Below, one piece after another: positions 13,795 through 44,395 of a stretch of 61,621 nt of DNA (its first letter is position 1; each line of letters opens with the position of its first letter). This DNA comes from Verrucomicrobiota bacterium. GTDB lineage: Bacteria; Verrucomicrobiota; Kiritimatiellia; SS1-B-03-39; UBA6053. The notes beneath the pieces are model-generated. The model did no database searches, was not told the origin of the DNA, and saw nothing but the letters and a program-made list of their open reading frames with translations. The position numbers and the translations under genes are program-made. The stretch spans positions 1 through 61,621 of the forward strand of contig JAFIGD010000030.1 in NCBI GenBank assembly GCA_020831625.1. The letters are read 5' to 3'.

Positions 13795-16653
13795 ATGATT
13801 TTGGTGTACGAACTTCTGGAACCCCGCAACAACGCCCTCTCCGTGCAAATCTACGGCATGGAAATTGAGGAAGGACTGCCCATGCGCGGCACCCGCTATC
13901 CCGCCCAGCCGCAACGCCTGCTCGATAAAGGCATGTCCGGACTCACCCTCAGTAAGCAGGACCGCAAAATCCTCCTTAATATGATCATACAAGGCCAGAC
14001 CGGCAGCGCCCGGGCCGTTTTCCGCGGCCGCGACGCCCACCGCCTGATCGAACTCCTCATCCAAACCGGACGCGCCTACGCCTGGAATCACCCCGAAAGC
14101 CCTCTCGCCTTCGAACCCCGTCCCGCCAACGCACCGCTTGCCTGGAAAACCGCCGACATTGGCTTTGCCCCCACCGTCCGGCTCCCCGGGGATTGCAGCC
14201 TTCTCCCCGCCAAACCGATGCTCCTGCTCCACAGCCCTTCAGGCGTTTGCCAACCGCTCGGCCCGCCCGAACTCGACGATGCCGCCTGGGCCTGGCTCAC
14301 CACCCCGCCCATGCCCGAAACCGCCGTCAACCGCTTTTTTCAAACCCTGACCGACCGCTATCCGCACGCCGGACTTCCCCCGCCCCCCTCCCTCGAACAT
14401 GTCGTCCTCAATCACTTCGACCCCGTTCCCGGCCTGCACATCCATCTCGTGCCGGCCGACCGCGAAGACCGCTTCCTTGCCGAGCCCCTCTTCTATTACG
14501 GCGATAAAACCTTCCCACCCGCCACCAAAACCGAACGGATCCGTTTCCTCTACGAGGACCAGCTCGTGGAGGCTCCCCGCATGCTCGGCGCGGAACAGGC
14601 CGCCCTCGGCACCCTGGAAGAAAACGGAATGACCCCCTGCGCCGCCCCAAGCGCCGGGGATCTCTTCTCCGCCTCCAAAACCCAACGCGGCTGGGAGCCC
14701 GTGCAGCCCCTCACCTGGACCACCTTTTTCACCGAAACCACAAACACCCTCCAGTCCAAAGGCTGGCGGATCACCTTCGAACACAACGCCCAACCCCACC
14801 TCCCCTCAAAAGAAGACGGGTACGCCGAGTTCACCGAATCCAAACGCGGCTGGATGAGCTTCGAACAGGGCGTCCGCATCGATGGCAAGCCCGTCAACCT
14901 CCTTCCCGCCCTCCACGCCTTCCTCCAGAGCCGCGCCAAACACAGCCTCGACGACATCCGCGCCGAACTCCGCGCCAACGACGTCCCCGTCGCCACCCCC
15001 GAAGGCCTCGTCCTCATTCCCGGCCCCCGCTTCCTGCGCATGGTCGAACAGCTCCACGAACTCTTCGGAGCCGGTGCCCTCGACGCAAACAACCGCCTCC
15101 GCCTCAATCCCTGGCGCGCCGCCGAAGTTGCCGAGGGCACCCCCGGCAACTGGACACCCCCCGAAGAACTCCGGCAGGCCCTCCACCACCTCCGCGGCGC
15201 CCTCACCCTCGAACCCCTCGCCCCGCCGCCCGCCTTTCAGGGCGAACTCCGCGCCTACCAGCAGCGCGGCCTCGCCTGGCTCAACTTCCTCCGCCAAACC
15301 CGCCTCGGCGGCATTCTCGCCGACGACATGGGCCTCGGAAAAACCGTCCAGCTCCTCGCCCTCCTCGCCCTGCAGGCCGAAGAAAACCCCGACCACGAAC
15401 CCGTCCTCATCGTCTGTCCCGCCAGCGTCCTCCCCAACTGGCGCCGCGAATGCCGCCGCTTTACCCCCCACCTCAACATCGCGGTCATGCACGGAGCCGA
15501 CCGCCACGACGACCGCGCCCGCATCGAATCCGCCGACATCCTCCTCACCACCTACACCCTTCTCTGGCGCGACCAGACCTTCTACGAGCAGGTTCCCCTC
15601 TCCATGCTCATTCTCGACGAGGCCCAGGCCGTCAAAAACCCCAAATCCCGCGGCAGCCGCGTCGCCGCCTCCCTCAACGCCCGCCTCAAACTCGCCGTCA
15701 CCGGCACCCCCTGCGAAAACCACCTCGGCGACCTCTGGGCTCTCTTCCACATCGTCCAGCCCGGCTTTCTCGGCGGCGAAAAAGACTTCCGCACCCACTA
15801 CCGCAAACCCATCGAGCAGGAAGGCCGGGGCGCCCTCCGCAGCGCCCTGCAGAACCGCATCCGCCCCCTCCTCCTCCGCCGCACCAAAGACCTCGTCGCC
15901 CGGGATCTGCCGCCCAAAACCGAAATCATCGTCACCATTCCCCTCAGCGAGGTCCAGACCGATCAATATCAGACCATCCGCTCTGCCATGAGCGAAAAAA
16001 TTCAAACCGAAATGGCCGCCAAAGGCCTCAACCAAAGCCGGTTCACCATTCTGGACGCCATGCTCAAGCTGCGACAGACCTGCTGCGACCCGCGCCTCCT
16101 GCAGCCCGAACATCCCTACACCCTGCCCGACGACTCCGCCAAACTCGCCCACCTTATGGAGATGATTCCCGAACTCATCGAAGAGGGCCGCCGCATCCTC
16201 CTCTTCTCCCAGTTCACCTCCATGCTCGACCTCATCAAACCCGAACTCGCCAAACAAAAAATTCCCCATGTCGAAATCCGCGGCGACACCCGCGACCGCG
16301 ACACCCCCGTCCAGCGTTTTCAGAACGGCGAAGTCCCCCTCTTCCTCATCAGCCTCAAAGCCGGCGGCTCCGGCCTCAACCTCACCGCCGCCGACACCGT
16401 CATCCACTACGACCCCTGGTGGAATCCCGCCGTCGAGGCCCAGGCCACCGACCGTGCCCACCGCATCGGCCAGGACAAGCCCGTCTTCGTCTACAAGCTC
16501 ATCACCGAAGGCACCCTCGAAAACACCATCCTCGACATGCAGACCGAAAAACGCAAACTCGCCGGCCTCATCGAATCCGACGACACCTCCGCCTTCAACC
16601 TCACCCAAACCGACCTCCAGCGCCTCCTCGCCCCCCTCGACCTCGACGCATGA
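13795..16653 (+). CDS. SNF2-family helicase, copy A
   Basis: 952 residues. The first ~480 residues are the SNF2-associated region with no zinc-finger motif visible. The ATPase core follows: LADDMGLGKTVQLLALL near residue 512 (Walker A), LILDEAQAVKNP near 607 (DEAQ), LAVTGTPCEN, then the C-terminal helicase half with LLFSQFTSMLDLI, LISLKAGGSGLNLTAADTVI and ATDRAHRIGQ near 888. Such RapA/HepA-like proteins translocate on DNA and remodel protein-DNA complexes. Its stop overlaps the ATG of a dead fragment of SNF2 gene B by 4 bp. That shows A and B once formed a coupled pair, now separated by 31.5 kb. Confidence 0.92.
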   Translation: MILVYELLEPRNNALSVQIYGMEIEEGLPMRGTRYPAQPQRLLDKGMSGLTLSKQDRKILLNMIIQGQTGSARAVFRGRDAHRLIELLIQTGRAYAWNHPESPLAFEPRPANAPLAWKTADIGFAPTVRLPGDCSLLPAKPMLLLHSPSGVCQPLGPPELDDAAWAWLTTPPMPETAVNRFFQTLTDRYPHAGLPPPPSLEHVVLNHFDPVPGLHIHLVPADREDRFLAEPLFYYGDKTFPPATKTERIRFLYEDQLVEAPRMLGAEQAALGTLEENGMTPCAAPSAGDLFSASKTQRGWEPVQPLTWTTFFTETTNTLQSKGWRITFEHNAQPHLPSKEDGYAEFTESKRGWMSFEQGVRIDGKPVNLLPALHAFLQSRAKHSLDDIRAELRANDVPVATPEGLVLIPGPRFLRMVEQLHELFGAGALDANNRLRLNPWRAAEVAEGTPGNWTPPEELRQALHHLRGALTLEPLAPPPAFQGELRAYQQRGLAWLNFLRQTRLGGILADDMGLGKTVQLLALLALQAEENPDHEPVLIVCPASVLPNWRRECRRFTPHLNIAVMHGADRHDDRARIESADILLTTYTLLWRDQTFYEQVPLSMLILDEAQAVKNPKSRGSRVAASLNARLKLAVTGTPCENHLGDLWALFHIVQPGFLGGEKDFRTHYRKPIEQEGRGALRSALQNRIRPLLLRRTKDLVARDLPPKTEIIVTIPLSEVQTDQYQTIRSAMSEKIQTEMAAKGLNQSRFTILDAMLKLRQTCCDPRLLQPEHPYTLPDDSAKLAHLMEMIPELIEEGRRILLFSQFTSMLDLIKPELAKQKIPHVEIRGDTRDRDTPVQRFQNGEVPLFLISLKAGGSGLNLTAADTVIHYDPWWNPAVEAQATDRAHRIGQDKPVFVYKLITEGTLENTILDMQTEKRKLAGLIESDDTSAFNLTQTDLQRLLAPLDLDA

Positions 16654-16730: not shown

Positions 16731-16784
16731 CTGCACATCCCCCAGGTGCTCAACCTGCCGCCCGAGTCATGTCGTCATCCCTAA
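16650..16784 (+). pseudogene. Truncated 5' fragment of SNF2 gene B
   Basis: An ATG overlapping the stop of copy A starts 27 codons (MKTLSLDAIQSCTLPAYFEE and on to WFDT) identical in protein to the start of the intact gene at 48304. Then the sequence jumps to LHIPQVLNLPPES, which matches VHISQVLNIPPED found about 140 codons further along gene B. The join falls at a GACAC shared by both places in gene B (48379 and 48790), suggesting a microhomology deletion. After that the frame runs out at 16784, inside the end of the GntR gene on the other strand. The second part is more diverged (roughly 30 of 39 bases) than the first (82 of 84), so a mosaic origin or a related paralogue is possible. Confidence 0.85.
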
Positions 16785-17879
16785 ATGTAAAGAGCCTTTC
16801 AGATAAAAAATATTTTCATCAGAGTGCCTGTTTTTTGCAAGGTCATGAACTAATTGGAACGTCCTTTTCCCAATCTCCAAAAAAGGCAGTTTATATGTAG
16901 TGAGCTCTATTGAATTATCAGCTCCCGTGGCAGGCAAATAACCTCCGATTCCGGCGATTTTCATCGCTTCAGGAATCTTAATGCCTCTTTGTTTTGCAAC
17001 ATCCAGACAGCCCAAACCAATGAAGTCATCTGCACAGAGACACCCGTCGGGCAATGCATCAATGTGGTCAAACCATCGGCCCGCCAAACGACGGACACCC
17101 TCCAGCGGATGATCGAAGTCGGGCTTAATCTCAGGCACCTGAAGAATATGCGCCTGATGGAGCTCCAACCCTGAATCCTGCATGGCTTTTTTGTAGCCCA
17201 TGTACCGGTCCCGTATATTAATCGACAGCGAATCATTGCTGATAAAACCGATGGTGCGGCATCCCTTGTCGACCAAATGACGCGTCATGGTATAGGCGGC
17301 ATCAAACGCGTCCCCGATCACGGACGGAATATTCACGCCCGGAAGCGAGTTCTCCGCCAGGACCACCGGGCAGGGGCATTTCAGCAGGGCTTTTTCAATT
17401 TGATGCCGCTGGTCCACATTCACGATCAAGGGGTAGACAGCGACCGCCCGGACGTTAAAGTCGGTAAGATGGTTTAAAATCTGGGCCTCTTTTTCAAAAT
17501 CCGATCCCACGCTCAAAAGCAGCGTTCGGCGTCCAACCGATTGTGCCGCTTCATTAAACCCGCTGACAATCTGCCAAATTCCGGGATGATGTTCTCCCGG
17601 ATAGATGAAGGCGAAAGCGTTCAGATTGTGTTTTGCCGGTACCGGAGCTCCCGTCCTCTCCACCACTTTGGTGCCCACACGCGGTCTGCGCTCCACAAGG
17701 CCCAAATGCACCAGACTGGCCAATGCTTTACTCACAGTTCCGCGGCTGACCGCCAATTCCTCCGCCAACTCTGATTCCGTGGGCAAACACTCCCCCTGGG
17801 GATAAATCCCGCTTTCAATGCGCTCCAAAAGCATCTCCCGGATAGCATCCACTTTTAGCTTAGACCCTGATTGATTCAT
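16767..17879 (-). CDS. GntR-LacI hybrid transcriptional regulator (AraR-like layout)
   Basis: 370 residues. Residues 1-75 are a GntR winged helix: REMLLERIESGIYPQGECLP, TESELAEELAVSRGTVSKAL, LVHLGLVERRPRVGTKV. Residues ~85-365 form a LacI/periplasmic-binding-protein sensor: FAFIYPGEHHPGIWQIVSGF, AAYTMTRHLVDKGCRTIGFI, LPDGCLCADDFIGLGCLDVA, MKIAGIGGY. This arrangement is that of AraR, a sugar-responsive repressor. It is the last gene of the long minus-strand array and its stop overlaps the dead SNF2 fragment at the island edge. A half-site resembling the island palindrome lies 12 bp upstream of its start, suggesting autoregulation. Most likely controller of the island. Confidence 0.88.
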   Translation of the reverse strand: MNQSGSKLKVDAIREMLLERIESGIYPQGECLPTESELAEELAVSRGTVSKALASLVHLGLVERRPRVGTKVVERTGAPVPAKHNLNAFAFIYPGEHHPGIWQIVSGFNEAAQSVGRRTLLLSVGSDFEKEAQILNHLTDFNVRAVAVYPLIVNVDQRHQIEKALLKCPCPVVLAENSLPGVNIPSVIGDAFDAAYTMTRHLVDKGCRTIGFISNDSLSINIRDRYMGYKKAMQDSGLELHQAHILQVPEIKPDFDHPLEGVRRLAGRWFDHIDALPDGCLCADDFIGLGCLDVAKQRGIKIPEAMKIAGIGGYLPATGADNSIELTTYKLPFLEIGKRTFQLVHDLAKNRHSDENIFYLKGSLHLGMTT

Positions 17880-17936: not shown

Positions 17937-18959
17937 TCAGGGAAGAATCAGTGGGAGCACCTCCTCGAAGTTTTGGCAAACCGCATGGCAAAATCCGTCC
18001 ATACCGCCTGTAGACAGATTCCCGCCGGCGACACCGATTACCGGGAAACCGGCAAGGCGAAGAGCCATGACTCCCGCCCCGCTGTCTTCTATCCCCACAA
18101 CGTGATGCCGCTCTTCAAAAGGAATCCCCAGGCCCACCCGGGCGGCTTCGGCATAGAGCCAGGGATGCGGTTTGGGACACAACTCCCCCAGAGTGCCGGG
18201 TTCCCCCGGCCGGAGCGCATGGCCGGCAGTGATGATCGTGTCATAAAACTCGGCGGGATCGCCCAGTCCGAGGGTTCTGAACGCATCCAGTATTTCCGGC
18301 CAGGCTTTTTCATGTAATCCGGAGGTGACCAGCGCGATTTTGATAGTATGCGCTTTCAGGGTGAGAAGAAATTCCTTGATGCCGGGTGCGGGGCGGAACG
18401 CCCCGCGAAGTCCGCTTCCCTGAAGAACAGCCTCCATTTCAACACGGGTAACATGATAGTACCTGCTTCTGGCTTCCTCCACCGTTTTATGAGGGCAATA
18501 CGTTCGTATGCAATAGAGCAGGTGTTCGGAAACAGAGTGACCGGATACAAAGGGCAGGTCTTCCGGTTTCAGGGCAAAACCGGGATCTTCAAGCAGCAAC
18601 GCCATGGTTTTTTGGATAATTCCAATCCAGAAGGCCTCACTGTGAACGGTCGTGCCGTCCAAATCCATCAGGACTGCTTTGATAGGCTTTTCCAACCGGA
18701 CGGAATGCAGCGGATAATAAGCAGGGTATCCCAGCTTGGAGCGGACATGCGCCAAAACCTTCCCGCTGCGAAATGAAACAAACTCAATCGTCCGGTCCGG
18801 CGTGCGGCGAACAGAAACAACCTCCGGATCCCGCAGCGCGAAAAGTCCATCCGCAGTTTCCGCCAGGGCCTCCAGGTTCTCATGCGGCAAAACGTCCGGT
18901 TCAAATGCCTTGCCGGGCGGTTCACCTTTTGCCAACGGGTTAGAGTTCCGGGGAGTCAT
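17937..18959 (-). CDS. HAD-superfamily phosphatase/phosphomutase with N-terminal extension
   Basis: 340 residues. HAD motif I is VLMDLDGTTVHSE (Asp99 nucleophile, Asp101). Motif II is IALVTSGLHEK, the conserved Lys region is CPKPHPWLYAEAARVG, and motif IV is VVGIEDSGAGVMALRLAG. The cap region follows motif I, as in beta-phosphoglucomutase-like and sugar-phosphate phosphatases. The first ~90 residues are an extra domain without recognised family, ending just before motif I. The start overlaps the stop of the ROK-like kinase by 4 bp, so the two are made together. A kinase-HAD pair suggests phosphorylation of a sugar followed by isomerisation or dephosphorylation. Substrate unknown. Confidence 0.82.
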   Translation of the reverse strand: MTPRNSNPLAKGEPPGKAFEPDVLPHENLEALAETADGLFALRDPEVVSVRRTPDRTIEFVSFRSGKVLAHVRSKLGYPAYYPLHSVRLEKPIKAVLMDLDGTTVHSEAFWIGIIQKTMALLLEDPGFALKPEDLPFVSGHSVSEHLLYCIRTYCPHKTVEEARSRYYHVTRVEMEAVLQGSGLRGAFRPAPGIKEFLLTLKAHTIKIALVTSGLHEKAWPEILDAFRTLGLGDPAEFYDTIITAGHALRPGEPGTLGELCPKPHPWLYAEAARVGLGIPFEERHHVVGIEDSGAGVMALRLAGFPVIGVAGGNLSTGGMDGFCHAVCQNFEEVLPLILP

Positions 18960-20362
18960 ATCGATTTCAGGGCGGGAAGACTTGCGGCGGCGACAGCCTG
19001 ACCCACACGGCGGAATCTCTCATCCGGCACATGCAGGGTGATGGAATGGCGGGAATCCCCAAACACCCTGTCTAAAACAGAGCGGGCGGTCTCAAGAATT
19101 GTTTCTCCCCCCGCTCCGGACAGGACCCTTCCCAATAACAGCACATGCTCAAAATCGAGATAGTCCCGGTAAAGAGGCAGGCTGTATCCCAGACAGACCC
19201 CGATGCTTTCAAAAATGCGCAGGGCATCCGGGTCCGCCTTGTCCGCAAGCACCTGCACCGCCCGCAAACGCTCTGGCAAAGGCATCTCCCCGGGAAAATG
19301 AAGACCCGTCCTTGGAGCCAGACGCGCCACGGCCTGCTGGGAAAAGTACTGGGCGCCGCAACCGAGGTCCCGGGCAATCGGCTCTTGTGCGGCCTCCGCC
19401 GAAAGATCGACCGGAACATAGGCCAATTCATGATAATTTCCGGTAAACCGGCATTCACCGTTCACAAAACCGGCCGCCTCGCTCGATCCCATCGCAATGC
19501 CCAGCAACGGGGCGCACCCGAGCGACATTGCGCCCGCCAGAGCTGTCACTTCTCCGTCATTCATTACTTCCAATGGAACTCCCCACTCTTTTTGCAGATT
19601 GAGAAACAGGGGTTCGACCCGGCGTTGAAAATCATCCGGAGGCACCGCACGAAACAGGGAGGCAACTTTCACCCGGTTGGCAACATAGGCCCCGGCAGCA
19701 CTGCCCCCAATGGCATCCACACGTGGAAGATGTTGAGCGGCAAGCTTAAGCCCGGCGCGAATTCGCTCGATATGGTACTCCGGATTCGATTCGCGGCCGG
19801 GATCCCAGGGAATTTCCGTGGTGAATACCGGTTCACCCTCTTTCACCGCGGCCAGCTTGTAGTCACTCGCGCCAAGATCGAACCCAATGCGGCAGCCGTC
19901 GAGATGGCCTCCCTGTGACAGACTCAGGGTCCGGGCGGGAGGCAGATCCGATTCCAGAACACGGTTCACCTCAAAAGGCTGTTCATACACCGTCTGCATC
20001 CGGATGACATCGGCCGCCCTTTCTCCCCCGCAGGAAAAAACGCTCTGCAGGTCCCCGCACAGTCTGCTTGGACCAGACAGACTGAGCCGGGTTCCGCCAT
20101 GAATCCAAAGCAGACTCTTCACCTGCCGCTCCACGTACCGGAACATGTCCGGATCCTTTCGACCCTCCGATCCGGGAATACGTAAACTCCGGCGCACCAC
20201 CACCCCGTCCGCTCTTTCGAGGGCGATATGGAGTGTTTGAGCATTTTTAGAATGCCGCGCAGCGTTCTCGATGCGCCGGTTTTCCAACACCACCGGACGG
20301 AAACCGGGGTCGAGGGGAACCGGAATGGGCGGCATGTTTTCAGAAGTCGAATGGATATTCAT
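18956..20362 (-). CDS. ROK-like ASKHA sugar kinase with unusual N-terminal domain
   Basis: 468 residues from the ATG at 20362; further upstream starts run into the neighbouring gene. Residues ~1-150 have no recognised family. From there an ASKHA core is seen: CRIGFDLGASDYKLAAVKEG (phosphate-1 loop with Asp, Gly and Lys), AIGGSAAGAYVANRV, VMNDGEVTALAGAMSLGCAP and LGIAMGSSEAAGFVNG (comparable to the ROK NDANAA and GTGVGGG blocks), and HVLLLGRVLSGAGGE near the adenosine site. The ROK zinc motif CxCGxxGCxE is absent and the catalytic Asp position reads NDGEV. Probably a sugar kinase of a divergent family, coupled by an ATGA overlap to the HAD gene. Confidence 0.65.
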   Translation of the reverse strand: MNIHSTSENMPPIPVPLDPGFRPVVLENRRIENAARHSKNAQTLHIALERADGVVVRRSLRIPGSEGRKDPDMFRYVERQVKSLLWIHGGTRLSLSGPSRLCGDLQSVFSCGGERAADVIRMQTVYEQPFEVNRVLESDLPPARTLSLSQGGHLDGCRIGFDLGASDYKLAAVKEGEPVFTTEIPWDPGRESNPEYHIERIRAGLKLAAQHLPRVDAIGGSAAGAYVANRVKVASLFRAVPPDDFQRRVEPLFLNLQKEWGVPLEVMNDGEVTALAGAMSLGCAPLLGIAMGSSEAAGFVNGECRFTGNYHELAYVPVDLSAEAAQEPIARDLGCGAQYFSQQAVARLAPRTGLHFPGEMPLPERLRAVQVLADKADPDALRIFESIGVCLGYSLPLYRDYLDFEHVLLLGRVLSGAGGETILETARSVLDRVFGDSRHSITLHVPDERFRRVGQAVAAASLPALKSI

Positions 20363-20393
20363 ACTAGGCCTTGAGACATGGAAGTTTTTGTGT

Positions 20394-21914
20394 TCATCGG
20401 GCAACCCAGATTGGACTGGACCAGGCCCATTGACGGTTCCACTGTTCCACCCGCACGCGATACACATCGTATCCATTGCCAAGCGGTTCACCGCCGGCCC
20501 GGTCGATTCCCGCCGTTTGAACTTCATACTGATCCGCCGTGGCGGCGGTCAGGCGGAACGCCGGTGTCCCATACCCGCCGATATAACTGCTCCGGGCTCC
20601 GGAAAGGAGCTCACTGAGCGGAAACGAAGTCAAACGTCCATTCACCTCCACTTCGATATGTGCATGCACGGGCATCTCCACTTCGAGAGAAAACCCCTGG
20701 TTGCTGTTGGTCACGGTGGTGCTGTTCCCCCGGGTCCGGGTATGGAAAGACACGGTGCGGCCGTCCTCCTGTTTCCAGGAGGAATAAGAGAACTCCTCCT
20801 CCGTTCCGTCCGGGGAAACGGTTTCGCTTCCCTTGAAACGGGGTTCCGCCGCCAATATCTCCCCTTCCCCCAGCCCGAAGCGGACCCGCCAGTCCACCGG
20901 CCGTCCCCGGGAGCCCCAGCCCACCTCCAGATTGACTTTGGCCCGAACGATGCCGGAGCGGGGACCCTCCCCGTCCGCGACAACCGGCCAGTACCGTTCC
21001 AACACCTTCTCATTTTTCAGCAGTTCAATTCCACGAATCGCCCCGCCGGCTTTGACCGACAGATTGAACTGCCGGGATTCAGACGACGTTTCGATGACGG
21101 AACCCGTGGGCGCGTCATTCAACGAAAAAAGGAGTTCGACATTGTCGCCGGTAAGCGCAACCGTTCGGCGGTTTTGTATCGCCTCCCAGATTGCGTGGCG
21201 GGTAAGCGACGCCGCCAGCACCGCGACCCGCCCGTGTCCGTGACTGCCGGGATGGGCACTGTGGTGGTCGGTGGAGGCGGTCACGCCCACAACATGGCCC
21301 ATTTTCAATCCGGCGCTGTAGGTGCTGTCCACATCGCAGGGTCCCATGGAGTGGAGGTAGGGATATGGAGAATGGTCCCCTTCGCTGCAACCATGCATGG
21401 AGAAAATTTCAACCACAGGGCTGACTTCACTGGAAAAGTTCCGCCAGTTAATCCCCCGGTAACCCTGCTTATAGCCAATATGGTGGGGGAAGCACATCGC
21501 CGCCACGCCCCGGCGGTTCAGTTCGGTCAGAGATTCACGAAGGGCCGTCACGTCAGGCGTATCCAGAATCCGCCCCTGTCCGTCCCGGTACATGACCGTT
21601 TGATCCCCGTCCGCGCAGGAATGCATTTCGTAGCCAAGAAAACTGACAAATTCCCCATCGCGGTTTGCCGAATCACTCTCTTCACAAAAAGCCTCCCAGC
21701 CGGACGCCAGTTTTCGGAACCCGTCCTCGTGATAACGGATCCGCCGCTCCATGCCCGGCTGATTGCGGGGCATGTCCGGCCAGAGTCCGTGTCCGGTCAC
21801 GGAAACAAAATCCAGTTGCATCCTCGCGTTGGCCAGTGCCTCCCGGAGAGAGCCATGACCATAACTGGCCCCGCAATGACTGTGAATATCCCCATAATAC
21901 GTTTTCAGCTTCAT
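20394..21914 (-). CDS. PHP/DUF3604-type metal-dependent hydrolase
   Basis: 506 residues without signal peptide. A PHP-superfamily metal site is readable: YGDIHSHCGASYGHGSLREA, LDFVSVTGHGL, CFPHHIGYKQG, VVEIFSMHGC and GVTASTDHHSAHPGSHGHGR give the His, Asp and Glu ligands in the usual order. The C-terminal ~170 residues look beta-rich (GIELLKNEKVLERY, YSSWKQEDGRTVSF) and may be an accessory domain. PHP enzymes hydrolyse phosphoesters or other bonds; this branch (DUF3604, CehA-like) has no settled reaction. Its start overlaps the NagB stop by 4 bp. A hydrolytic step on a phosphorylated or modified sugar would fit the operon. Confidence 0.75.
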   Translation of the reverse strand: MKLKTYYGDIHSHCGASYGHGSLREALANARMQLDFVSVTGHGLWPDMPRNQPGMERRIRYHEDGFRKLASGWEAFCEESDSANRDGEFVSFLGYEMHSCADGDQTVMYRDGQGRILDTPDVTALRESLTELNRRGVAAMCFPHHIGYKQGYRGINWRNFSSEVSPVVEIFSMHGCSEGDHSPYPYLHSMGPCDVDSTYSAGLKMGHVVGVTASTDHHSAHPGSHGHGRVAVLAASLTRHAIWEAIQNRRTVALTGDNVELLFSLNDAPTGSVIETSSESRQFNLSVKAGGAIRGIELLKNEKVLERYWPVVADGEGPRSGIVRAKVNLEVGWGSRGRPVDWRVRFGLGEGEILAAEPRFKGSETVSPDGTEEEFSYSSWKQEDGRTVSFHTRTRGNSTTVTNSNQGFSLEVEMPVHAHIEVEVNGRLTSFPLSELLSGARSSYIGGYGTPAFRLTAATADQYEVQTAGIDRAGGEPLGNGYDVYRVRVEQWNRQWAWSSPIWVAR

Positions 21915-22735
21915 ACATGTGCTCCTTCAGATACTTCCAGGGTAAACGTTTTCCGGGAAACCGTGTCCGGATTCGGACACGCGGATCCGGATGTCATCCG
22001 GAGCGCAGCCCCCGCCTCTGGATCCAGATACCACATGGCGTCCGAATGACCGCGCAAGGCGGAGGCGGGCACAACCGTGGACACCGGGCCGTGGACCGCC
22101 TCCGCGACCGCCCGGGCTTTGGATGGTCCGAACGCCAGCAGTTCGCACCTGCGCGCCTCCAGAATCGTGCGGATGCCCATGGTGATACTTTGCCGGGGAA
22201 CGGCGGCAGGACTGCCGTCAAAGAATCCCGCATTGTCGGAACGGGTCCGGGGGGTCAGTGTGCTCACCCGGGTGCGGGACAGAAAAGAGGTCCCGGGTTC
22301 ATTAAAGCCGATATGCCCGTTGCTGCCGACGCCCAGCACCAGCAGGTCGATTCCTCCGGCCTGCGCAATTGCGGCCTCGTACGCCTCACAGGCGGCAGGC
22401 AAATCCGCCGCCATTCCGTCCGGCAGATGGATCCGCTCCGGCGGCACATTCACCGCATCAAAAAAATTGCGCCGCATGAACGTGTGGAACGAACCGTCAT
22501 GGCCGGGCGGCAATCCCACATATTCATCCAGATTAAAGGTTGTCACCCGACTGAAATCCAGACCGGCCTCACGGTGAAGCCGGATCAATTCCCGGTACAG
22601 CAGACGCGGGCTGTTCCCGGTGGGCAAACCGAGTACCGCATCCGGCTTTTCACGGATCAGCCGGTCAATCCGCATTGCAAGCTCTCTGCTGGCGTCTTCA
22701 GGCGTATTATAAACCATAAATTTCATTGCATTCAT
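21911..22735 (-). CDS. nagB: Glucosamine-6-phosphate deaminase NagB family
   Basis: 274 residues, usual length. Diagnostic segments are AVLGLPTGNSPRLLYREL, TTFNLDEYVGLPPGHDGSFH (catalytic Asp), LLVLGVGSNGHIGFNEPG (catalytic His and Glu loop) and TMGIRTILEARRC. The enzyme converts glucosamine-6-phosphate to fructose-6-phosphate and ammonia. Its presence suggests that the glycan contains an amino sugar, or that this relative handles another sugar phosphate. Start ATG at 22735 or 22726. It is translationally coupled on both sides (ATGA overlaps with the ADP-ribosylglycohydrolase-fold gene and the PHP gene). Confidence 0.88.
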   Translation of the reverse strand: MNAMKFMVYNTPEDASRELAMRIDRLIREKPDAVLGLPTGNSPRLLYRELIRLHREAGLDFSRVTTFNLDEYVGLPPGHDGSFHTFMRRNFFDAVNVPPERIHLPDGMAADLPAACEAYEAAIAQAGGIDLLVLGVGSNGHIGFNEPGTSFLSRTRVSTLTPRTRSDNAGFFDGSPAAVPRQSITMGIRTILEARRCELLAFGPSKARAVAEAVHGPVSTVVPASALRGHSDAMWYLDPEAGAALRMTSGSACPNPDTVSRKTFTLEVSEGAHV

Positions 22736-24192
22736 TTTCCCTCAACCGTGAAGACTCCCGGAATCCATTGCCCTCCGTCATCCAGATCGGCGATTCCCGC
22801 CACCCATTCCACCACCCCCGCCTCTTCGGGACGGGCAATCACTGCGGTCAAAACATGCCTGCCGGGACTCATCACCCGGTCCACATACTGATTGATGGGA
22901 ATGCGGTGGGCGGAGGGAGCCATGCGCCCCCCTTCACGTCCAAACGCATACGCCCCGTCCACAAACACCCGGCAGTTTTCGCGGGTGTTGAAACAAATGC
23001 GCGCGCGGGTTTCCCGCCGGAGCTCCCATTCAAGCTGTAAAAACATCATGCCCGCCTGAAACGCATCTGTGTGAATCCGACCCAGAGTCCCCGGAAACCG
23101 TTTCGGGGACAACGGAGGCATCTTCAGCGTCATCGGTTTATTTCGCGACCAGCCCTGACCGAACCAGGGAACCTCCTGAAAACCAATCCCCACTTGAATG
23201 GTTTGCGCGGGAACCGGAACCGGCTCCGCCTCCGGGGGCGTGCGACCCTGCAAACGGTCCCGAAGGCTCACCACCAAATCCGTAAAGCCGTCCAGGGTTG
23301 GCGGGGGCGAAATCCCCCGGATCTGGGGGCTGAGTTTCAGATCCCGCCCTATCGGATCAAGCCATTTCGGGTCGATGCCGTCCGGATTCAGAATTCCCAG
23401 CAATGCCCCCACTGTCGCCGCCGTGCAGTCGGTGTCTTTTCCACAATTCGCCGCCGTGCAGATGGAGCGGGAAAAGTCTCCGTCTCCGTCCAGCAGGGCC
23501 AGCAGGATAAAGGCGATGTTTTCGGTGACATTGGTGAAATCCTCATGGCCATACCGATCCAGAATCTGCCGTCTGACCTCCCTCCAGTCCCCGGAGCCTT
23601 CCCACCACTGAAAGGTGTCCCGGACCGCCCGGGCCAGAATCGAGTCTGCCGGGATCTGTTTGAGCCCCGCCTCGACAACATCGCTTACACGCCTCATCTC
23701 AAAGGCGGCGGACTGCATCGCCGCCAGAAAGACTTCGGCCCAGAGCCCGTCCCGGTCATGATCAACACAGGCGTCCTCATAGGCATAGGCCGCGGCGAGT
23801 GCGGGGTTTCCCGGCGCCAGACAGGCCCACAGTTCACTGCGGATCGCCGCCCCCATGCCATTCATGAACCAATTGTCAAACGATCCGCTTTGCGGCGCGG
23901 CGATCCCCTCGCGCAGATTCCGGATACACACCGCATACTCATCCCAGGGAAACCCGATATGCTCCAGCCAGCCGCGGCTCAGGACATGCCGGCAAACCCG
24001 GGGGTCTGTCTCCCGGTCCAGAAGGCAGGCCCAGACCACCTGAAGATCCAAATCGTCATTGGGCAGCATTTCCCGGGGAACCGGGTCGTAAAACGCCAAA
24101 TCGAACGGACCGGACATCCCCTCGTAGGGCATCCCCAGTGTTCCGCCCACGGCTTTGCCAAGCCAGCAGCCCATAACCTGATCACGATACAT
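22732..24192 (-). CDS. ADP-ribosylglycohydrolase-fold protein
   Basis: 486 residues from the ATG at 24192, chosen because it starts the family motif YRDQVMGCWLGKAVGGTLGMPYEG. The di-metal ligand sets of the ADP-ribosylglycohydrolase fold are present in variant form: LPNDDLDLQVVW in place of the usual TDDT block and NCGKDTDCTAATVGALLG near residue 250. The last ~150 residues are beta-rich (FNTRENCRVFVDGAYAFGRE) and look like an appended accessory domain. Members of this subfamily recur in polysaccharide loci of PVC bacteria and Bacteroidota. There they more likely cleave an N- or O-glycoside than ADP-ribose, but no activity can be assigned here. Its 5' end overlaps the GH38-like gene by 11 bp. 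Confidence 0.8.
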   Translation of the reverse strand: MYRDQVMGCWLGKAVGGTLGMPYEGMSGPFDLAFYDPVPREMLPNDDLDLQVVWACLLDRETDPRVCRHVLSRGWLEHIGFPWDEYAVCIRNLREGIAAPQSGSFDNWFMNGMGAAIRSELWACLAPGNPALAAAYAYEDACVDHDRDGLWAEVFLAAMQSAAFEMRRVSDVVEAGLKQIPADSILARAVRDTFQWWEGSGDWREVRRQILDRYGHEDFTNVTENIAFILLALLDGDGDFSRSICTAANCGKDTDCTAATVGALLGILNPDGIDPKWLDPIGRDLKLSPQIRGISPPPTLDGFTDLVVSLRDRLQGRTPPEAEPVPVPAQTIQVGIGFQEVPWFGQGWSRNKPMTLKMPPLSPKRFPGTLGRIHTDAFQAGMMFLQLEWELRRETRARICFNTRENCRVFVDGAYAFGREGGRMAPSAHRIPINQYVDRVMSPGRHVLTAVIARPEEAGVVEWVAGIADLDDGGQWIPGVFTVEGK

Positions 24193-27061
24193 GCGTTGTC
24201 TCCCGGTTCCGCTCCGGCGTTTCAGGCTCGGAGACAAGTTCAAATTTGAGGGTCACGATTTTGTATGCGGGGAGTTCGATACGGAGTTCACAGCCCGAAG
24301 GGTGCAGGGTCTCGCGCTCCTCCTCGTTGCCGTTGCACCGCCAGACACGGGCGACCGGCTTGGGAAACCGGAGGCATTCCATAAGAGAGGTTCCCGTGGG
24401 ATTGTTCAGTCTGACAATCAGCGCCTCCGAATCTTCCGCTTTTTTCAGACAGAGAACCCGGGTGGCCGGATGCGCGGTCCGCAGAAAGCTCTGTTCAAAT
24501 CCGCCGTTTCCTCCCGGTTTCCGGGCATGTTGCATGGCCCGCATCGGAGCCGTATACCGGGCCGCCCGGGTGGCCAGTTCCCCTTCGGAGGTCCCCCCGG
24601 GATGCACCAACAGCGCATAGTCAAGCCGATGCCGCCCCGGGCACTGCGCATACGCCTCTTGTGAAGAAATCATCACATTCATATGCACCGGAAAATCCTG
24701 GGAGACCCCGCGGAGAAGCGTCAGATCTACAAATGGGTTGTCCGTGTTCCCCGTTTCGATTTCATGCAGCCCCCGGGTGATCAGCGTGATCCCGCCTTTG
24801 TCGTCTGACAGATCCACAAAGGTCTGCATGGGGTGACGGTAAATGACAGACTGCGGATCGTCGGCCTCCCCCACCGGATCCACCGCCCGCCGCTTCAACA
24901 TAAAGGAGGTGTCGGAAAGGGTTTCCTCCGCACAGACACCCGGTTGAAACCGGAGACTCAGCTTGTGATCCCGAACCGAATTCTCCACACAGGTGGTGAA
25001 ATCAATCCGCCGGCTGCCGGCGCGGAGACAAATGGAGGACCTGATTGGAACATCCACTTTGTCCGGACTGCGGCAGGAACGGTCTTCGGACAGCCCCCGG
25101 GGCAGCTGCATCACAAGCGAAAGGGCCAAGACGCCTGTAAGCGGGGAATTCTCCACGATTGCACAGGTGTGGGACGCACCCCGGGAGTCGTACACTTCGT
25201 TTCCGGGCGGGGGATTGTGCACCCAGACATTCCCGCAATCTCCGGAGTCGATAAACACATGCACACTGCAGTATTCCCGCCCGGTTTCATAGTCGAATAT
25301 CTTCAACGTCGCGTCCGGATTCAGCGTAACCCGGAGCACACCATTATCCAGGGTCCGGCTGTCACGTGCAATGAGCTGACGGAAATAACGGGGAACCCCG
25401 AACGGATTCGGCGCGTCGGTGGCCAGCCCTTTCTCCCGGTCGATCCGAAACGTCCGGTAGCCAAGAGGTGGAATCGCGGGAAGGTCCACGTCCACGAGAA
25501 CGGAGTGGGTATAGAGCGCCTTGGGCCGGTTCTCGGGGTTGATGGACGGGATATTCCGCCGCCCGGATTCCAGAACATGACAGCCGCATTCCCGTCCTTC
25601 CGACAGGTCCAGAATCCGAAAGCCGCGGACATAATCCTCGAGCGGCAGATCCAGTTCGAGTCTGAGGATCCCGGAACGTTCAACCGGCAGGGGATTGAAC
25701 ACCGTGAACACCAAGTCATCTTCATCAAGGGATGAGGTGTCGATTTCGCGCACCAGAAACTCCAAGGCTTTACGGGTCAGCGTCTCGGCAATTTCCTGGA
25801 CCTGAGCGATGCGGAATAGATTGTCCGGTGTGATTTTGTCCACGCCCGCTCCGTGTATCGAGTCGTGTGACTGCGCCTTGAGCAAATATTTCCAGGCAAA
25901 CCCCAGGATGTCTGACGGATAGGATCCGCCGGACACATAGGCGGCGGACTGAAACATCTCCGCATACTGAATCAGCTCCAGTTCCGCGGCAAAGAGTTTC
26001 AGTTTCATCGGCATGGTTCCGCTGAGTGTTTCGGAATGTACCTTCGAAATTGGGCCGCACCGCGCCTCCCCCCGGAAGACCCGCAGCCGGGAGAGATCCA
26101 CTTCCGCCCGGAAAGCTTTAAAGTAGTCCGGCAGGTTGCTGTGAATCAGCTTCACGTCTCCGTTCATGATTTCATTCGCGGCCCCGAGGGCTGCGGGAAT
26201 TTCCCGGAGCGGGGTGGAGAAATCGATCCCGTCGAATGCCAGCAGATTTTTCCGGGCGACAGTCCCCTCGACGCTTTGAATCACGTTAAGCACCGCGTCG
26301 TGAATTTCCTCCTCCCGTATCCGCAGATCCGGACAGAGTTCCGTGGCGGGATGCCGGTGATTCGCACGGTCTACATAATGACAGAGTCCGGTTCCGTCCG
26401 CATACCTCACATTCCATCCGGGCCGCATCATATGTCCTCCCAGAAGAACGGGAACGGTGAAATAGGCGAAGAAATTGAGGCGGCAGTCCTTGCCCAGCCG
26501 CGAACAAAGCGCGCGGGTTCCATCCGGTGCCTCCCAAATAAACTCCGAGTCTTTCATGACCGAAGGGGAAGCCCCCTTGTAAAAAATAAGCTCGTCAATA
26601 TCGAATTCCCCGTAGAGCTGGGGCAACTGCTCGATCTGTCCAAACGAGAAAATTGAGTACCCCGCTTTCATCACCGGCCCGAATTCGGCGGCCACCCGGT
26701 GTCCGGTCAGCAAATTCCGGAACAGGGATTCAGGATGCACCGCGCTGCAGTCAGGCAGAGAATACCAGGGCCCCACCAGAATCTTCCCGGAGGAGATATG
26801 TTGTTTCAGGCGCTCCCGGTTCCTGGGCCTGATTTCGAGATAGTCCTCCAGCACCACGGTCTGCCCGTCGAAGGTGAACGATTTAAAATCCGGTTCGGAC
26901 TCAATAATCTCCAGAAGCCGGTCCACCGCCTCCACCAGCATCATCCGTGTCTCCTGGAACCCGTGCCGGTGCTCCCGGTCCCAGTGCGTGTTGCTGAGGA
27001 CGTGAATGATTTGGGGCCGGTCCGCCTGCGGATCCGGTGCCGGGGTCACGTGATCGTTCAT
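24182..27061 (-). CDS. GH38-like alpha-mannosidase family protein with altered nucleophile motif
   Basis: 959 residues, normal for bacterial GH38. The N-terminal catalytic domain is clear: IHVLSNTHWDREHRHGFQET, MLVEAVDRLLEII, FDGQTVVLEDYLEI, KILVGPWYSLPDCSAVHPES. The middle and beta-sandwich C-terminal domains (FTVFNPLPVERSGIL, NGVLRVTLNPDATLKIFDYETG) also match. However, the block that normally carries the nucleophile Asp (pattern GYxPDxFGH or GYxPDxFGQ) reads GYSIFSFGQ near residue 134, so the Asp is Phe. The His and Asp of HWDRE are kept. It may have lost or moved its nucleophile. No signal peptide; ATGA overlap with the symporter gene. Confidence 0.82.
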   Translation of the reverse strand: MNDHVTPAPDPQADRPQIIHVLSNTHWDREHRHGFQETRMMLVEAVDRLLEIIESEPDFKSFTFDGQTVVLEDYLEIRPRNRERLKQHISSGKILVGPWYSLPDCSAVHPESLFRNLLTGHRVAAEFGPVMKAGYSIFSFGQIEQLPQLYGEFDIDELIFYKGASPSVMKDSEFIWEAPDGTRALCSRLGKDCRLNFFAYFTVPVLLGGHMMRPGWNVRYADGTGLCHYVDRANHRHPATELCPDLRIREEEIHDAVLNVIQSVEGTVARKNLLAFDGIDFSTPLREIPAALGAANEIMNGDVKLIHSNLPDYFKAFRAEVDLSRLRVFRGEARCGPISKVHSETLSGTMPMKLKLFAAELELIQYAEMFQSAAYVSGGSYPSDILGFAWKYLLKAQSHDSIHGAGVDKITPDNLFRIAQVQEIAETLTRKALEFLVREIDTSSLDEDDLVFTVFNPLPVERSGILRLELDLPLEDYVRGFRILDLSEGRECGCHVLESGRRNIPSINPENRPKALYTHSVLVDVDLPAIPPLGYRTFRIDREKGLATDAPNPFGVPRYFRQLIARDSRTLDNGVLRVTLNPDATLKIFDYETGREYCSVHVFIDSGDCGNVWVHNPPPGNEVYDSRGASHTCAIVENSPLTGVLALSLVMQLPRGLSEDRSCRSPDKVDVPIRSSICLRAGSRRIDFTTCVENSVRDHKLSLRFQPGVCAEETLSDTSFMLKRRAVDPVGEADDPQSVIYRHPMQTFVDLSDDKGGITLITRGLHEIETGNTDNPFVDLTLLRGVSQDFPVHMNVMISSQEAYAQCPGRHRLDYALLVHPGGTSEGELATRAARYTAPMRAMQHARKPGGNGGFEQSFLRTAHPATRVLCLKKAEDSEALIVRLNNPTGTSLMECLRFPKPVARVWRCNGNEEERETLHPSGCELRIELPAYKIVTLKFELVSEPETPERNRETTHVS

Positions 27062-29064
27062 ACGGATTCCTCCTCTTTTGACGGCACAAACCCATCATCC
27101 TCCTCATCCCGCTTCAGTTCGCTGAGGGTCCGGAACAACACCTTCAGATCCATTGAACCCCCGATAATAAACCAGACCGTGGTGCTGACCGCCATGGCAA
27201 TCATAATAACCAGGTAGAAAAGCCACCAGCGCGCCCAGGCGTCCTCGCTCACATCGCGGAACAAATTGTAGACGGTCCCCACCGCGAAGCTGATCACAAA
27301 AAACAGGGTCCATCCGATCCGCAGCAAATAAATAATCTTGTCGCCGCGGGTAAATTCACGTCCCACCCCAAGCCTCCGCCAAAAGGAACTGACGCCATAA
27401 TCTTTATGTTCCCCCGCAACTGAAAATTCACCCCGGTGCAGAATGCGGTCCATATCCACCCGCTGACGGCGGCATGTCAGCAATGAAACCAGCACATAAG
27501 AGGACATTGCGATCAAGGCCGAATAAAACGAAATCTGGACGCCGTGCAGCGGAAATTCGGACGGCAGGGACTGCAGCCAGGTCCACTGCGGCCTTGCCGC
27601 AATCATGTCCGGAAGCCTTGGCCAGAGAATGTTGTTGAGTACAATGCCGGACACCGCCAAAAACGATCCGACCGACATTGCCGTCCACGCCCCGGCCGTG
27701 GTTCCGTTTTTCCAGTAGAGCCCCCCGATAATCACGGAACCCGCTCCGCCAATATAAATCGCGCCGGTAATGGTGGTGAACATCACAATGTATTCCCGCA
27801 GCGGGAAAACGGTGCTGAACACAAAAGCGAACACCGCCACCCCGATCACCGCCCGGCGGAGCCAGAGAATATGCTGCTCGGGGCTCAGACGTTCTTTCCG
27901 GAGCGGAAGCACCACATCCTGAATGAAAATACTGCCCCATGAATGCAGATAGGTGTTGTCGGTTGACACCGCAGCGGCAATAATCACTGTGCTCATCAAC
28001 CCGAAAAGACCCACCGGCAGGATTTCCGCCAGTGACAACGGAACCGTCATCTGAACCCGCACCTGTTCATGCGGAATGCCCTCCAGGGCTGCCCGAACCG
28101 ATTCCGCCGCAGGCTGGGTATGCGGACTGTTGAGCAGCACATAGGCCCCCACCGCCCCGGTCATGTACATCAGCCAGGTTATCTGCAACCGCCACTGTCC
28201 CAGCACCCCCGCCATCCGGGCTTCATGAGGAGTCCTCGCTGCGCTGCGGTATCCCTGATCCCCCTGCCAAACGCGAAAGCCGTAAATTGCGATAAACGTC
28301 TGCATCAGAAAGAATCCGGCATTGAACTGGGGAATATTCGCCTGTTTAAACGGATTCAGCATGGAATTCCCTTCCGGAGCCTGTTTCAACACCTCGACAA
28401 TATGCCCCCAGCCGAACGTAAACAGGATAAACAGACTCACGCTGATGAAGACCACATGAAAAACAGAAGCCTGCAGAAAGTCGGTCACCATGACCGCCAC
28501 ATGCCCCCCGGCCAGCGTGCACAGCAGCGCAATCGACAGCAGCACCAGCATGACCGCCGCCATCGTCAGATCCAGTTCCATGCCCAGCAGTTCAGTGGTC
28601 ATGACCGGAAACCCGAAAAAATAAATCACAAACCGGGCCGTGACCGCCGGAAAAATCCCGTAATTTATGATCCCGGAAAAAAAGGCCAGCATCCCCGCAA
28701 AGACCCGAAACCTTCGACTGTAGCGCATTTCAAAAAATTGCGCCATGGTCAGCGCCCGGGTTTCGCGAAAGCGGTAGACCACCCAGCCGCTCAACGAAAG
28801 GACCAGACCCACCGGCATCAGCATCGTGAGCCACCAGGCCACCGGAAAGCCGGCCTGATAATACTGTTCAAACCGGGCCACAATGCCCATGGCACCCACG
28901 GCGACCGCCCCTTCAGCCATCGTCAGCAGGTAGCGCCCGGCGCAGCGGTTCCCGGAAAGAAAATCCGCCACGCTGCGCGTATACCGCCGGGTCCGCAGGG
29001 CCATCAGAGTGATCCCCCCCAGAATACCAAACAGGATCAACCAGTCAAACCAGTGTAAATTCAT
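27058..29064 (-). CDS. Sodium:solute symporter (SSS family)
   Basis: 668 residues from the ATG at 29064, preceded by GAGGTG at good spacing; the GTG at 29073 has no such site. The protein is strongly hydrophobic with about 13-14 membrane segments. SSS features include the first helix LHWFDWLILFGILGGITLMAL, TRSVADFLSGNRCAGRYLL and FGLMSTVIIAAAVSTDNTYLHSWGSIFIQDV, where the Ser-Thr rich stretch belongs to the sodium site. It probably imports the sugar or sugar derivative released outside by the GH42-like enzyme encoded 21 bp upstream. It sits at the head of the cytosolic enzyme block. Confidence 0.9.
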   Translation of the reverse strand: MNLHWFDWLILFGILGGITLMALRTRRYTRSVADFLSGNRCAGRYLLTMAEGAVAVGAMGIVARFEQYYQAGFPVAWWLTMLMPVGLVLSLSGWVVYRFRETRALTMAQFFEMRYSRRFRVFAGMLAFFSGIINYGIFPAVTARFVIYFFGFPVMTTELLGMELDLTMAAVMLVLLSIALLCTLAGGHVAVMVTDFLQASVFHVVFISVSLFILFTFGWGHIVEVLKQAPEGNSMLNPFKQANIPQFNAGFFLMQTFIAIYGFRVWQGDQGYRSAARTPHEARMAGVLGQWRLQITWLMYMTGAVGAYVLLNSPHTQPAAESVRAALEGIPHEQVRVQMTVPLSLAEILPVGLFGLMSTVIIAAAVSTDNTYLHSWGSIFIQDVVLPLRKERLSPEQHILWLRRAVIGVAVFAFVFSTVFPLREYIVMFTTITGAIYIGGAGSVIIGGLYWKNGTTAGAWTAMSVGSFLAVSGIVLNNILWPRLPDMIAARPQWTWLQSLPSEFPLHGVQISFYSALIAMSSYVLVSLLTCRRQRVDMDRILHRGEFSVAGEHKDYGVSSFWRRLGVGREFTRGDKIIYLLRIGWTLFFVISFAVGTVYNLFRDVSEDAWARWWLFYLVIMIAMAVSTTVWFIIGGSMDLKVLFRTLSELKRDEEDDGFVPSKEEESV

Positions 29065-29085: not shown

Positions 29086-32000
29086 TCAGTCATTGGTTCT
29101 GCCCTGGAATTGAATTACCATTAAGGCATGGGGTCCAATCTCAGTGGTTAACACATGATTTGAGATTTCTATCGATCTTTCCGAAACCAAATCCAATCCC
29201 GTGGCTTGGTCAATTCCGTTGACACGGTACCGGACATCCAACCACTCTTTGTTGTCGTTAACTAATGCCACAAAAATATCCCCGTTTTTTTGAAAGATCA
29301 TACTGCGGACCGGCCTGGGCTCCAAAGCCAGCAGCGGTTCCGAATTCAGAAGACCGGCTTCGCTAAGAAGTGCTTTGAAAAAAGAAACATTATTTACCGC
29401 AAACTCTGTTCCCCGCCAGCGGCGCTGCAGGCTCGGATATCCACCCAGAACCATAACACTTCCCTTGCCGAGTTCTCGGCGTGCCACAAGCGTCTCTCCG
29501 AATTTAGAGGTCAAGACCGGGGTCCAGGAGCCGGTATGCCCCAGAACATATCCGTCATTGAATTGTGCGGCATATCCATTCCAGTCCGCCGTTGTGTCAC
29601 GTTTATTTCCTTCGAACCGAAGGCCTTCCAATCCCATGCGCTCTGCAAAATGTGACGGTGTTGCCCGGCCAAGGATATATCGCCCTGATTCGGGAAACAA
29701 CACCAGTTTGCCCCCGTTGGCCACATAGGCACCCAGACGCTCCACATCCCGATCACTGATCAGTTGGGACGCCGCATCAATCACCAGATCATATTTATCC
29801 AGAGCATGGTCGGTGAAATCCGTGAAATATTCCACAGTTGCACCCGTATATTGCAGCCCGAAAATAAAAGACTTATAGAACCTCCAGTCCCAATAAAAAT
29901 TTCCGGTAAAGGATTTGGCGTGATCGATGATGGAGCGATAGGATACATGGATACCAATCCTCGGCACCGGGCGATCGTTGTGTGCATGATCGAGAACATG
30001 AATCATGCTGTCAAAGTGCTGTTTCGTCGGTACCGTCTGAGACAAATTCGGAAAATTCACAATTCCCCCAGCATCATGCAGGATCCTCCCGGCGTGCAGC
30101 TTGCTGAACAGGGCACCCTCCGGACGATTGGGGTCCAGCCCGGCAGGTTCAATGTACATTCGCAGACCACTGCGTCGGTACATATCGTTCACCACATGGA
30201 AGTAGAACGTCTGCGCCGAGCAAATCCCTCCGAATGCATCGTGTTTTTTGAGAAGGTCGAACATGTTCTCCACAGGGCCAAACCCGCCGTAGTTGTAGAG
30301 CGTCAAAAACTTGTCGGTTTGTTCCCGGACGGATGTGAGCAGTGCGTCCGCCACGTAACGCAGGCCATACATTTTAAACTCGTTGAAATCATGCCATTTC
30401 CAGGAGGGATCGGTCTCAAAGAAGCGAGGCAAGGGGAGATCAATGCACTCCCAGGAAGTGTACTTTTCACCATGCCGCTCTGAAAGGGATTCCAATGTAT
30501 GCCCCTGGTCTTCAAGATACCGGCGGAAATGAACCCGTGACGCCTCGGAGTAGTCGAAGCTTTGCTCCCTGAATGCAGCCCCTGCAAACCCCCATTCGAC
30601 CGCCCTCAAGGATAGATGATATCCAATCACATGTGGAAAGGAATCATATCGCCGGACGATTTGCCGCATTAAATCACGGTATCCTTGATTCGTCTTCTCC
30701 GAAAATAGATTCGGGACCATCTTAAACCGAAACCCCTCGCTACGTGAAACCTCCCCGTCCTGGTCGACCATGTACTCTTCAGCCATCAGCCATATTGGAA
30801 TGCGATGCGCCTGGAACAGTGGGAAAAAAGTAACACTCAACCCGTGCTCGGCTGCTTTTTTGACGATCTCGTCAAGCCGCTGGAAATTATACCCCCCTGG
30901 GATCACTTCCAAATCATCCCAGTGCACGATGATCCGAATTCCATCGTACCCCGCCTCCTTGAGTATCGGAAAGTCATGGTCTGGATTACTCGAGACTCCC
31001 ACCTCCGGATGGTTAGCGCCAACATCCATCGGATAATACTGCGTTAGCAGGGGACGATCCGTGGGGAGAGAAACCGGTGTGATCGGAAAGTCCGGTGGAG
31101 TATCGTCATATTGTACCCCGACATAGAGTCGCCTTTCAGCAATTTTCCGGTCGCTGGAGTCATAGAGCGACACATGAAGCCTGTAGACACCCGCCTCGAC
31201 GGAATCCGTACTGAATGAAACCGCGTTCCTGGAGTCGAGGGCCCTGGATTCCTCCCAGACAGGAGAGAGGGTTTCAATCTTCCGGAGAAGCGAGGGAACA
31301 TACCGAGTGATGTACGGGTACAGCTGACAGACAACCCTCATCCCGTCCGCCCGCTCCGGGCTAGGCAACACCTCGAATGCCAATAAGTTGTCAGAAAACA
31401 GTTTATCCGTCCCGTCTATAGACAGAGGGATGATATTCCGATGCTTGTTCATATAGCGAGCCTCGCTGTGAATCGCGGTCTGGATCCGCTCCGAAAAAAA
31501 AGTCAGCGGCTTAGCTATTTCACCCAGTGTGGTTCCGGGCAACTCCCAGTCCTCGGGGACAAGGCTGACCTGCAAGCCTGAACGGACGGCGGAGCCCGAG
31601 GGGGCCAGGCCGGCCGGACTCGATATGTCCATACCGACATGAAGATACTCGACCTCGATCGCCCCCTGTGTCTGCGTGTTGTCGTCATTATGATAGATGC
31701 GGTACAGGAGCAACTGATCTGCTGCATCCTGGTCGCGGATGCCCACGCCCGTGGCCACCGTCGTCCAGGAATCGGTGTCGTGCAGGCGACGGTAGATATC
31801 GACGGTACCGGCCCCGGCCCCGGGCACTTGAGTGACTTCAAACTGCCAGGTATACCAGGTGTTCTCCGCAGTGGCGATCGACGCCGCCTCGTTCCAGGAC
31901 CCCCCGCCATTGACCCACACCCCGTCCGGTTGCAGCGCGATCCAGGTCCGGTCGAACCCACGGATATCCATAACGTTGATTCCCGATGAGCTCTGTGCCA

Positions 32001-44320: not shown

Positions 44321-44395
44321 TTCCTTTGTTTCCTTGTGGTATTTGGCCCCTCAGTATAAGCTGCCGAGTAGCGACTTGTCATGTAAACGTGAATC
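44291..44395. repeat. Duplicated sulfatase-GH42 junction, copy 2
   Basis: Direct repeat partner of 32335-32448. Here the sulfatase side is intact and the GH42 side is broken, the reverse of copy 1. Confidence 0.8.

Follow-up and report, generated by a model that had tools for sequence, protein, structure and literature searches.

The window analysed here, by which we mean the whole 61,621-nucleotide stretch of contig JAFIGD010000030.1 from a Verrucomicrobiota bacterium (GCA_020831625.1), contains a run of seven minus-strand genes whose products include a sugar kinase, a glucosamine-6-phosphate deaminase and several putative hydrolases. The seven open reading frames (ORFs) form one operon, at exactly the coordinates reported in a first-pass annotation made from the letters of the DNA: successive genes overlap by 4–11 bp (27058/27061, 24182/24192, 22732/22735, 21911/21914 and 18956/18959), and the PHP and KIN genes are separated by a gap of 31 bp if the KIN start is taken at 20362. 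From upstream to downstream, the genes are the following:

27058 to 29064, minus strand: SSS sodium:solute symporter (PF00474, 61.9 bits; ORF open to 29073, ATG at 29064)
24182 to 27061, minus strand: GH38-like protein (PF01074, 87.4 bits, and PF07748, 52.4 bits, both over the Pfam cut-off)
22732 to 24192, minus strand: ARH, an ADP-ribosylglycohydrolase-fold protein (PF03747, 142 vs 26.2 bits; ORF open to 24243, ATG at 24192)
21911 to 22735, minus strand: NagB, glucosamine-6-phosphate deaminase (TIGR00502, 274.4 bits vs a cut-off of 236.9)
20394 to 21914, minus strand: PHP/CehA-like metal-dependent hydrolase (weak DUF3604 match, 22.0 bits; NF038032, 51.1 bits)
18956 to 20362, minus strand: KIN, a ROK-superfamily sugar kinase (ATG at 20362; ORF open up to 20527)
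17937 to 18959, minus strand: HAD-superfamily, beta-phosphoglucomutase-like protein with an N-terminal extension of ~90 residues (PF00702 and PF13419 over cut-off)

The family calls of that annotation were borne out by matches to the SSF, Glyco_hydro_38N/C, ADP_ribosyl_GH, TIGR00502 and HAD models, the match to DUF3604 being weak.

KIN has no Pfam or NCBIfam match and does not reach the gathering score of PF00480, for which its relative L044 scores 19.6 vs 22.9 bits. A profile of 29 KIN relatives matches the ROK glucokinase 2qm1 (E=1e-4), as well as a ROK regulator and the N-acetylmannosamine kinase domain of GNE. In KIN the phosphate-binding motif reads DLGASDYK and the catalytic-Asp motif NDGEVTALAG; correspondingly, the ROK phosphate motif DxGxxxxK and the catalytic Asp within ND...AL are kept in a 39-row alignment, where D162, G164, K169, N268 and D269 are invariant. 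Translation most likely begins at the ATG at 20362, which fits the ~468-residue length of homologues; these align from near this position and span ~460-480 residues. The longest ORF extends further upstream, but its first ~55 residues are probably left untranslated. The first-pass annotation had described a ROK-like kinase with a new N-terminal domain; a region of ~150 residues is indeed unrecognised there, but it is common to the whole KIN family rather than specific to this operon. Homologues are present in 75 of 116 relatives, and the family, with at least 581 loci in Verrucomicrobia, Lentisphaerae, Aminicenantes, Acidobacteria, Armatimonadetes, Chloroflexi and others, is apparently widespread yet undescribed. 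KIN is very probably an amino-sugar kinase, and most likely one that phosphorylates N-acyl amino sugars and feeds NagB.

The genes that accompany KIN point to the step between these two enzymes. Among 124 distinct KIN loci, counting partners within 1.6 kb on the same strand, KIN neighbours a PIG-L protein (PF02585) in 82, NagA in six and a PHP of the window's type in five (three of the five PHP loci came from the PHP search, so that 5/124 is no frequency), and no locus holds two of the three. The other 31 loci lack all of them, several having NagB directly adjacent or lying on short contigs. NagB often follows the pair of KIN and deacetylase. Both KIN and NagB occur in 62 of the 116 genomes (odds ratio 8.3, p=1e-6, kinship ignored), and NagB lies within 6 kb of KIN in 33, on the same strand in every case; NagA is absent from 21 of these 33 genomes, as against 11/42 in the comparison (p=0.002, again ignoring kinship). 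On the KIN tree, the PIG-L, NagA and PHP states require only four changes, and the five PHP-linked KINs form a single clade (SH-aLRT 100). The simplest reading is that a single step of the pathway, de-N-acetylation, is carried out by proteins of different folds. The better-supported reading of the operon is a core of kinase, deacetylase and deaminase in which the deacetylase is exchangeable, inserted into a sulfated-glycan cluster.

Other genes also recur around KIN. In ~10 loci a conserved protein of ~290 residues, which by eye may be an AraC-type regulator, is encoded divergently from KIN-PIG-L-NagB (e.g., L251:9244-10074, L252:8716-9573 and L067:10321-11226). A phosphotransferase-family (APH) protein, by eye like N-acetylhexosamine kinases, is often found near KIN (L062, L077, L128, L138, L143 and L269), and some of these loci additionally carry a nucleotidyltransferase-like protein near KIN. 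In the Chloroflexi locus L109, KIN is preceded by a NagC-like regulator and directly followed by a protein that by eye is SIS-domain-like (L109:4499-5230), which is possibly another amino-sugar variant.

The physiology of two relatives, G153 and G160, is in line with such a core. Both genomes carry KIN, PIG-L and NagB in consecutive order, NagA was not found in either, and we infer that they represent Pontiella sulfatireligans F21 and P. desulfatans F1. Strains F21 and F1 grow on N-acetylglucosamine (GlcNAc) and chondroitin sulfate, and not on glucosamine (PMC7356697, PMC6388578). Growth on GlcNAc without NagA, together with none on glucosamine, is expected from a GlcNAc kinase, a PIG-L deacetylase and NagB, and the use of GlcNAc but not glucosamine fits a kinase acting on the acetylated sugar. 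It is therefore likely that KIN-PIG-L-NagB constitutes a NagA-independent GlcNAc route in the relatives. No description of a PIG-L-based GlcNAc route was found in the open-access literature, which is weak evidence of novelty. PIG-L/LmbE proteins comprise amino-sugar deacetylases such as TkDAC, BshB, MshB and PIG-L itself; one of them, the archaeal TkDAC, takes part in chitin catabolism (PMC4101496). The KIN-linked PIG-L proteins, which are the KIN neighbours in most relatives, differ in scoring below the BshB cut-offs, the expected substrate being GlcNAc or GlcNAc-6-phosphate, and the window operon itself has no PIG-L.

The operon works like NagK-NagA-NagB catabolism, with which it shares a kinase and NagB, and NagA itself is the neighbour in the six KIN loci mentioned above. 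It is not a strict member of that system: NagA is absent, and KIN and PHP fall below family cut-offs. In the window's genome NagA (TIGR00221) gave no match at E<=1e-3, the deacetylase position being taken by PIG-L in the relatives and by PHP in the PHP clade, and KIN diverges from other members of the ROK superfamily and has an additional N-terminal region.

The operon nagB is the only nagB in the window's genome, and its product matches Bacillus subtilis NagB (2bkv) in the Protein Data Bank with E=6e-64, keeps the same active-site Asn, and retains the active-site motifs NLDEY and GHxxFNE as NLDEYVG and GVGSNGHIGFNE. It is a true member of the glucosamine-6-phosphate deaminase family. A clade of their own for the NagBs of PHP-KIN loci was tested and not supported. 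As a separate observation, the NagBs near PHP-KIN in G172 (L167:14131-14910) and G153 (L168:5209-5991) have Ser at the position of Escherichia coli NagB Asp141, within the motifs GRSGHIGFNE and GQSGHIGFNE, and both still score above the nagB cut-off.

In place of PIG-L or NagA, the window operon has PHP. Our comparison sample consisted of ~288 genomes of the class, and orthologue counts include the window's genome. PHP orthologues of >60% identity occur in five of these genomes, the four others sharing 63-67% identity with the window's protein, and PHP lies immediately beside KIN in all five. Thus, PHP occupies the deacetylase position next to KIN. The motif residues HxH, GH and DHH are kept in the five orthologues, and D9, H11, H13, H42, H98, H144, H145, E169, D216, H217 and H218 are conserved throughout, an invariance derived from these close orthologues only; the His/Asp motifs are predicted to bind metal, as in the PHP superfamily. 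No PHP relatives were found in viral contigs. The PHP-KIN loci of G086 and G153 contain PL8 lyases, those of G086, G153 and G172 contain sulfatases and heparinase II/III-like, GH3 or DUF2264 genes, and a second NagB lies near PHP-KIN in G153 and G172. This suggests that PHP-KIN is a parallel branch for an amino sugar of a glycosaminoglycan-like polymer.

On balance, we lean slightly towards the operon being the cytosolic part of a sulfated-glycan cluster with an amino-sugar core made of KIN, PHP in the deacetylase slot, and NagB. In this scheme, the SSS symporter would import a desulfated mono- or oligosaccharide, from which ARH and/or the GH38-like protein may release an N-acylated amino sugar. 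Judging from its fold motifs and conserved context, KIN would phosphorylate this sugar, most likely at C6. A deacetylase would then remove the N-acyl group: comparative genomics places PIG-L or NagA in this slot in most relatives and PHP here, and the reaction would follow from the slot. Finally, NagB would convert glucosamine-6-phosphate to fructose-6-phosphate and ammonia, a step well supported by its family, and the HAD protein may handle a side or co-product sugar phosphate. The cytosolic amino-sugar route with phosphorylation and NagB-mediated deamination that had been proposed for this locus is supported.

Several observations weigh against this assignment. The ROK zinc motif CxCGxxGC is absent from the KIN family, where the consensus is DEWSGDxGCGxxYFSQQ, and the bearing of the growth data depends on the inferred identity of G153 and G160. 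Moreover, G160 has no close PHP in the class sample, though its probable species uses chondroitin sulfate. The window's NagB does not group as sister with those of other PHP-KIN loci. The best curated model for PHP is that of the CehA/McbA-type carbaryl hydrolases (NF038032), whose metal-binding motifs it keeps, but it scores 51.1 bits against an 80-bit cut-off (57.5 bits for the G210 orthologue) and its context is that of amino sugars, not pesticides. We know of no PHP protein that deacetylates amino-sugar phosphates. Furthermore, G086, G153 and G172 carry a full KIN-PIG-L-NagB set besides PHP-KIN, while in G210 there are two NagA matches and a second KIN, which is partial because the contig ends there; that PHP-KIN genomes keep separate KIN sets means that the role of PHP may differ from standard deacetylation. 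In the window's genome the only KIN is of the PHP type, but a PIG-L of the KIN-associated type (450 bits) is encoded, unlinked, on contig C18. Deacetylation could therefore occur there, and a role of PHP as de-N-acylase is not forced.

Under an alternative, which we regard as doubtful but as the most serious one, KIN and NagB would still catabolise an amino sugar, the PIG-L on C18 would deacetylate it, and PHP would remove another substituent (a sulfamate, another acyl group, an ester or a phosphate) before or after phosphorylation. The window's genome does hold a PIG-L of the right subtype, three of the four other PHP-KIN genomes retain the complete KIN-PIG-L-NagB set, and PHP-KIN sits among sulfatase and lyase genes. 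However, PHP never shares a KIN locus with PIG-L or NagA and takes the same position next to KIN as they do, and two genomes have another NagB close to PHP-KIN, which suggests that the branch is separate and complete in itself. From its genomic position, we consider the chances evenly balanced that PHP de-N-acylates an amino sugar or amino-sugar phosphate.

The first-pass annotation had instead viewed the seven genes as a single, undescribed pathway of their own: ARH would act on an N-linked or modified amino sugar, and phosphorylation and deamination would follow. Tight overlaps imply co-expression, and ARH keeps its metal motifs, NDDLD and GKDTDCTA (motif check, three orthologues), and recurs near PHP-KIN in G210, where one of its three orthologues (64-68% identity) lies two genes away; the other two lie after a sulfatase in G204 and at a contig end. 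Nevertheless, the seven-gene set was not found together in any other of the ~288 class genomes. Orthologues of ARH at >60% identity occur in four and those of GH38 at >40% identity in three, and PHP, ARH and GH38 orthologues travel in separate modules. In G153, for instance, one locus (L267:1041-11319) unites the GH38 orthologue, two sulfatases, an 834-residue protein and a HAD orthologue (439 bits) without KIN, PHP or ARH. Another HAD orthologue among the relatives (391 bits) lies near a KIN-PIG-L-NagB set. Because the sub-modules GH38+HAD and ARH+PHP+KIN recur apart, the window operon is a mosaic of modules around a conserved core, and a single conserved pathway is not supported. Likewise, an N-linked (glycan-Asn) substrate found no supporting evidence, no N-glycan-specific gene (e.g., for aspartylglucosaminidase) being recognised in the neighbourhood. 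We therefore hold the dedicated pathway to be improbable.

Less probable still is a role of ARH and PHP in the turnover of nucleotides or ADP-ribose, with their place in the operon due to chance or to nicotinamide adenine dinucleotide recycling: ARH is named after ADP-ribosyl hydrolysis and PHP enzymes are often phosphoesterases, but ARH relatives adjoin sulfatases (G204) and, for the more distant ones, flank GH2-like enzymes, and PHP is always beside KIN. The nearest solved chains match ARH weakly, and its C-terminal region lies outside the PF03747 model. Searches of the open-access literature yielded no account of ADP-ribosylglycohydrolase proteins acting on glycans within gene clusters.

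The GH38-like protein shares with the GH38 alpha-mannosidases (SpGH38, 2wyh; MngB) the domain order, the zinc-site His/Asp/His and the acid/base Asp. When aligned to 2wyh/3lvt, it keeps the SpGH38 zinc ligands His13, Asp15 and His351 and the acid/base Asp232. It differs in having Phe in place of Asp125, which in SpGH38 is both the catalytic nucleophile and the fourth zinc ligand (PMC2815779), and in scoring 375 against a cut-off of 1138 with the MngB equivalog model. The absent nucleophile rules out a standard α-mannosidase. Phe, Cys or Thr occupies the Asp125 position, with Gln at the following His, in 28 of 30 class GH38 homologues (set L221-L250), and Asp125 is kept in only two, which are among the most distant. 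A search of the open-access literature found no description of nucleophile-less GH38 proteins.

A more far-reaching proposal is offered tentatively. PHP may act on amino-sugar phosphates as a de-N-acylase of a new, third structural class, next to those of NagA and PIG-L. It would be partnered by an as yet undescribed kinase family of the ROK superfamily and be dedicated to an amino sugar of sulfated glycosaminoglycan-like polymers, and the operon's nucleophile-less GH38 would need a different mechanism. If these readings are true, many uncultured bacteria of the Planctomycetes-Verrucomicrobia-Chlamydiae (PVC) group, Aminicenantes, Acidobacteria, Armatimonadetes and Chloroflexi would use N-acetyl amino sugars via a kinase family without a name in Pfam or NCBIfam, PIG-L replacing NagA, and current annotation would overlook their GlcNAc catabolism. 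In the PHP variant a third unrelated fold would achieve the same step, and the nucleophile-less GH38 subfamily would point to new glycosidase chemistry. In our opinion, the most valuable points are the kinase family that has no name yet, the interchangeability of its deacetylases, and the GH38 group without a nucleophile; none of the three was described in the open-access papers searched.

The surroundings of the operon comprise a GntR/LacI-type regulator directly downstream of the HAD gene on the same strand, and upstream a series of genes assigned with Pfam:

16767 to 17879, minus strand: regulator with a GntR-type helix-turn-helix and a LacI-type sugar-sensor domain (Pfam GntR and Peripla_BP_3, over cut-off)
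29086 to 32364, minus strand: GH42-like protein
32609 to 34837, minus strand: GH78 rhamnosidase
34827 to 36416, 42744 to 44225, 44351 to 45760 and 45773 to 47302, minus strand: four sulfatases
36459 to 40769, minus strand: GHL10/laminin-G/malectin protein

With these neighbours, the seven-gene operon looks like the end of a sulfated-glycan utilisation cluster that works in the cytosol. The glycan cluster is flanked on both sides by SNF2-type helicase genes on the opposite strand, at 13795-16653, assigned from motifs only, and at 48265-51456, supported by Pfam.

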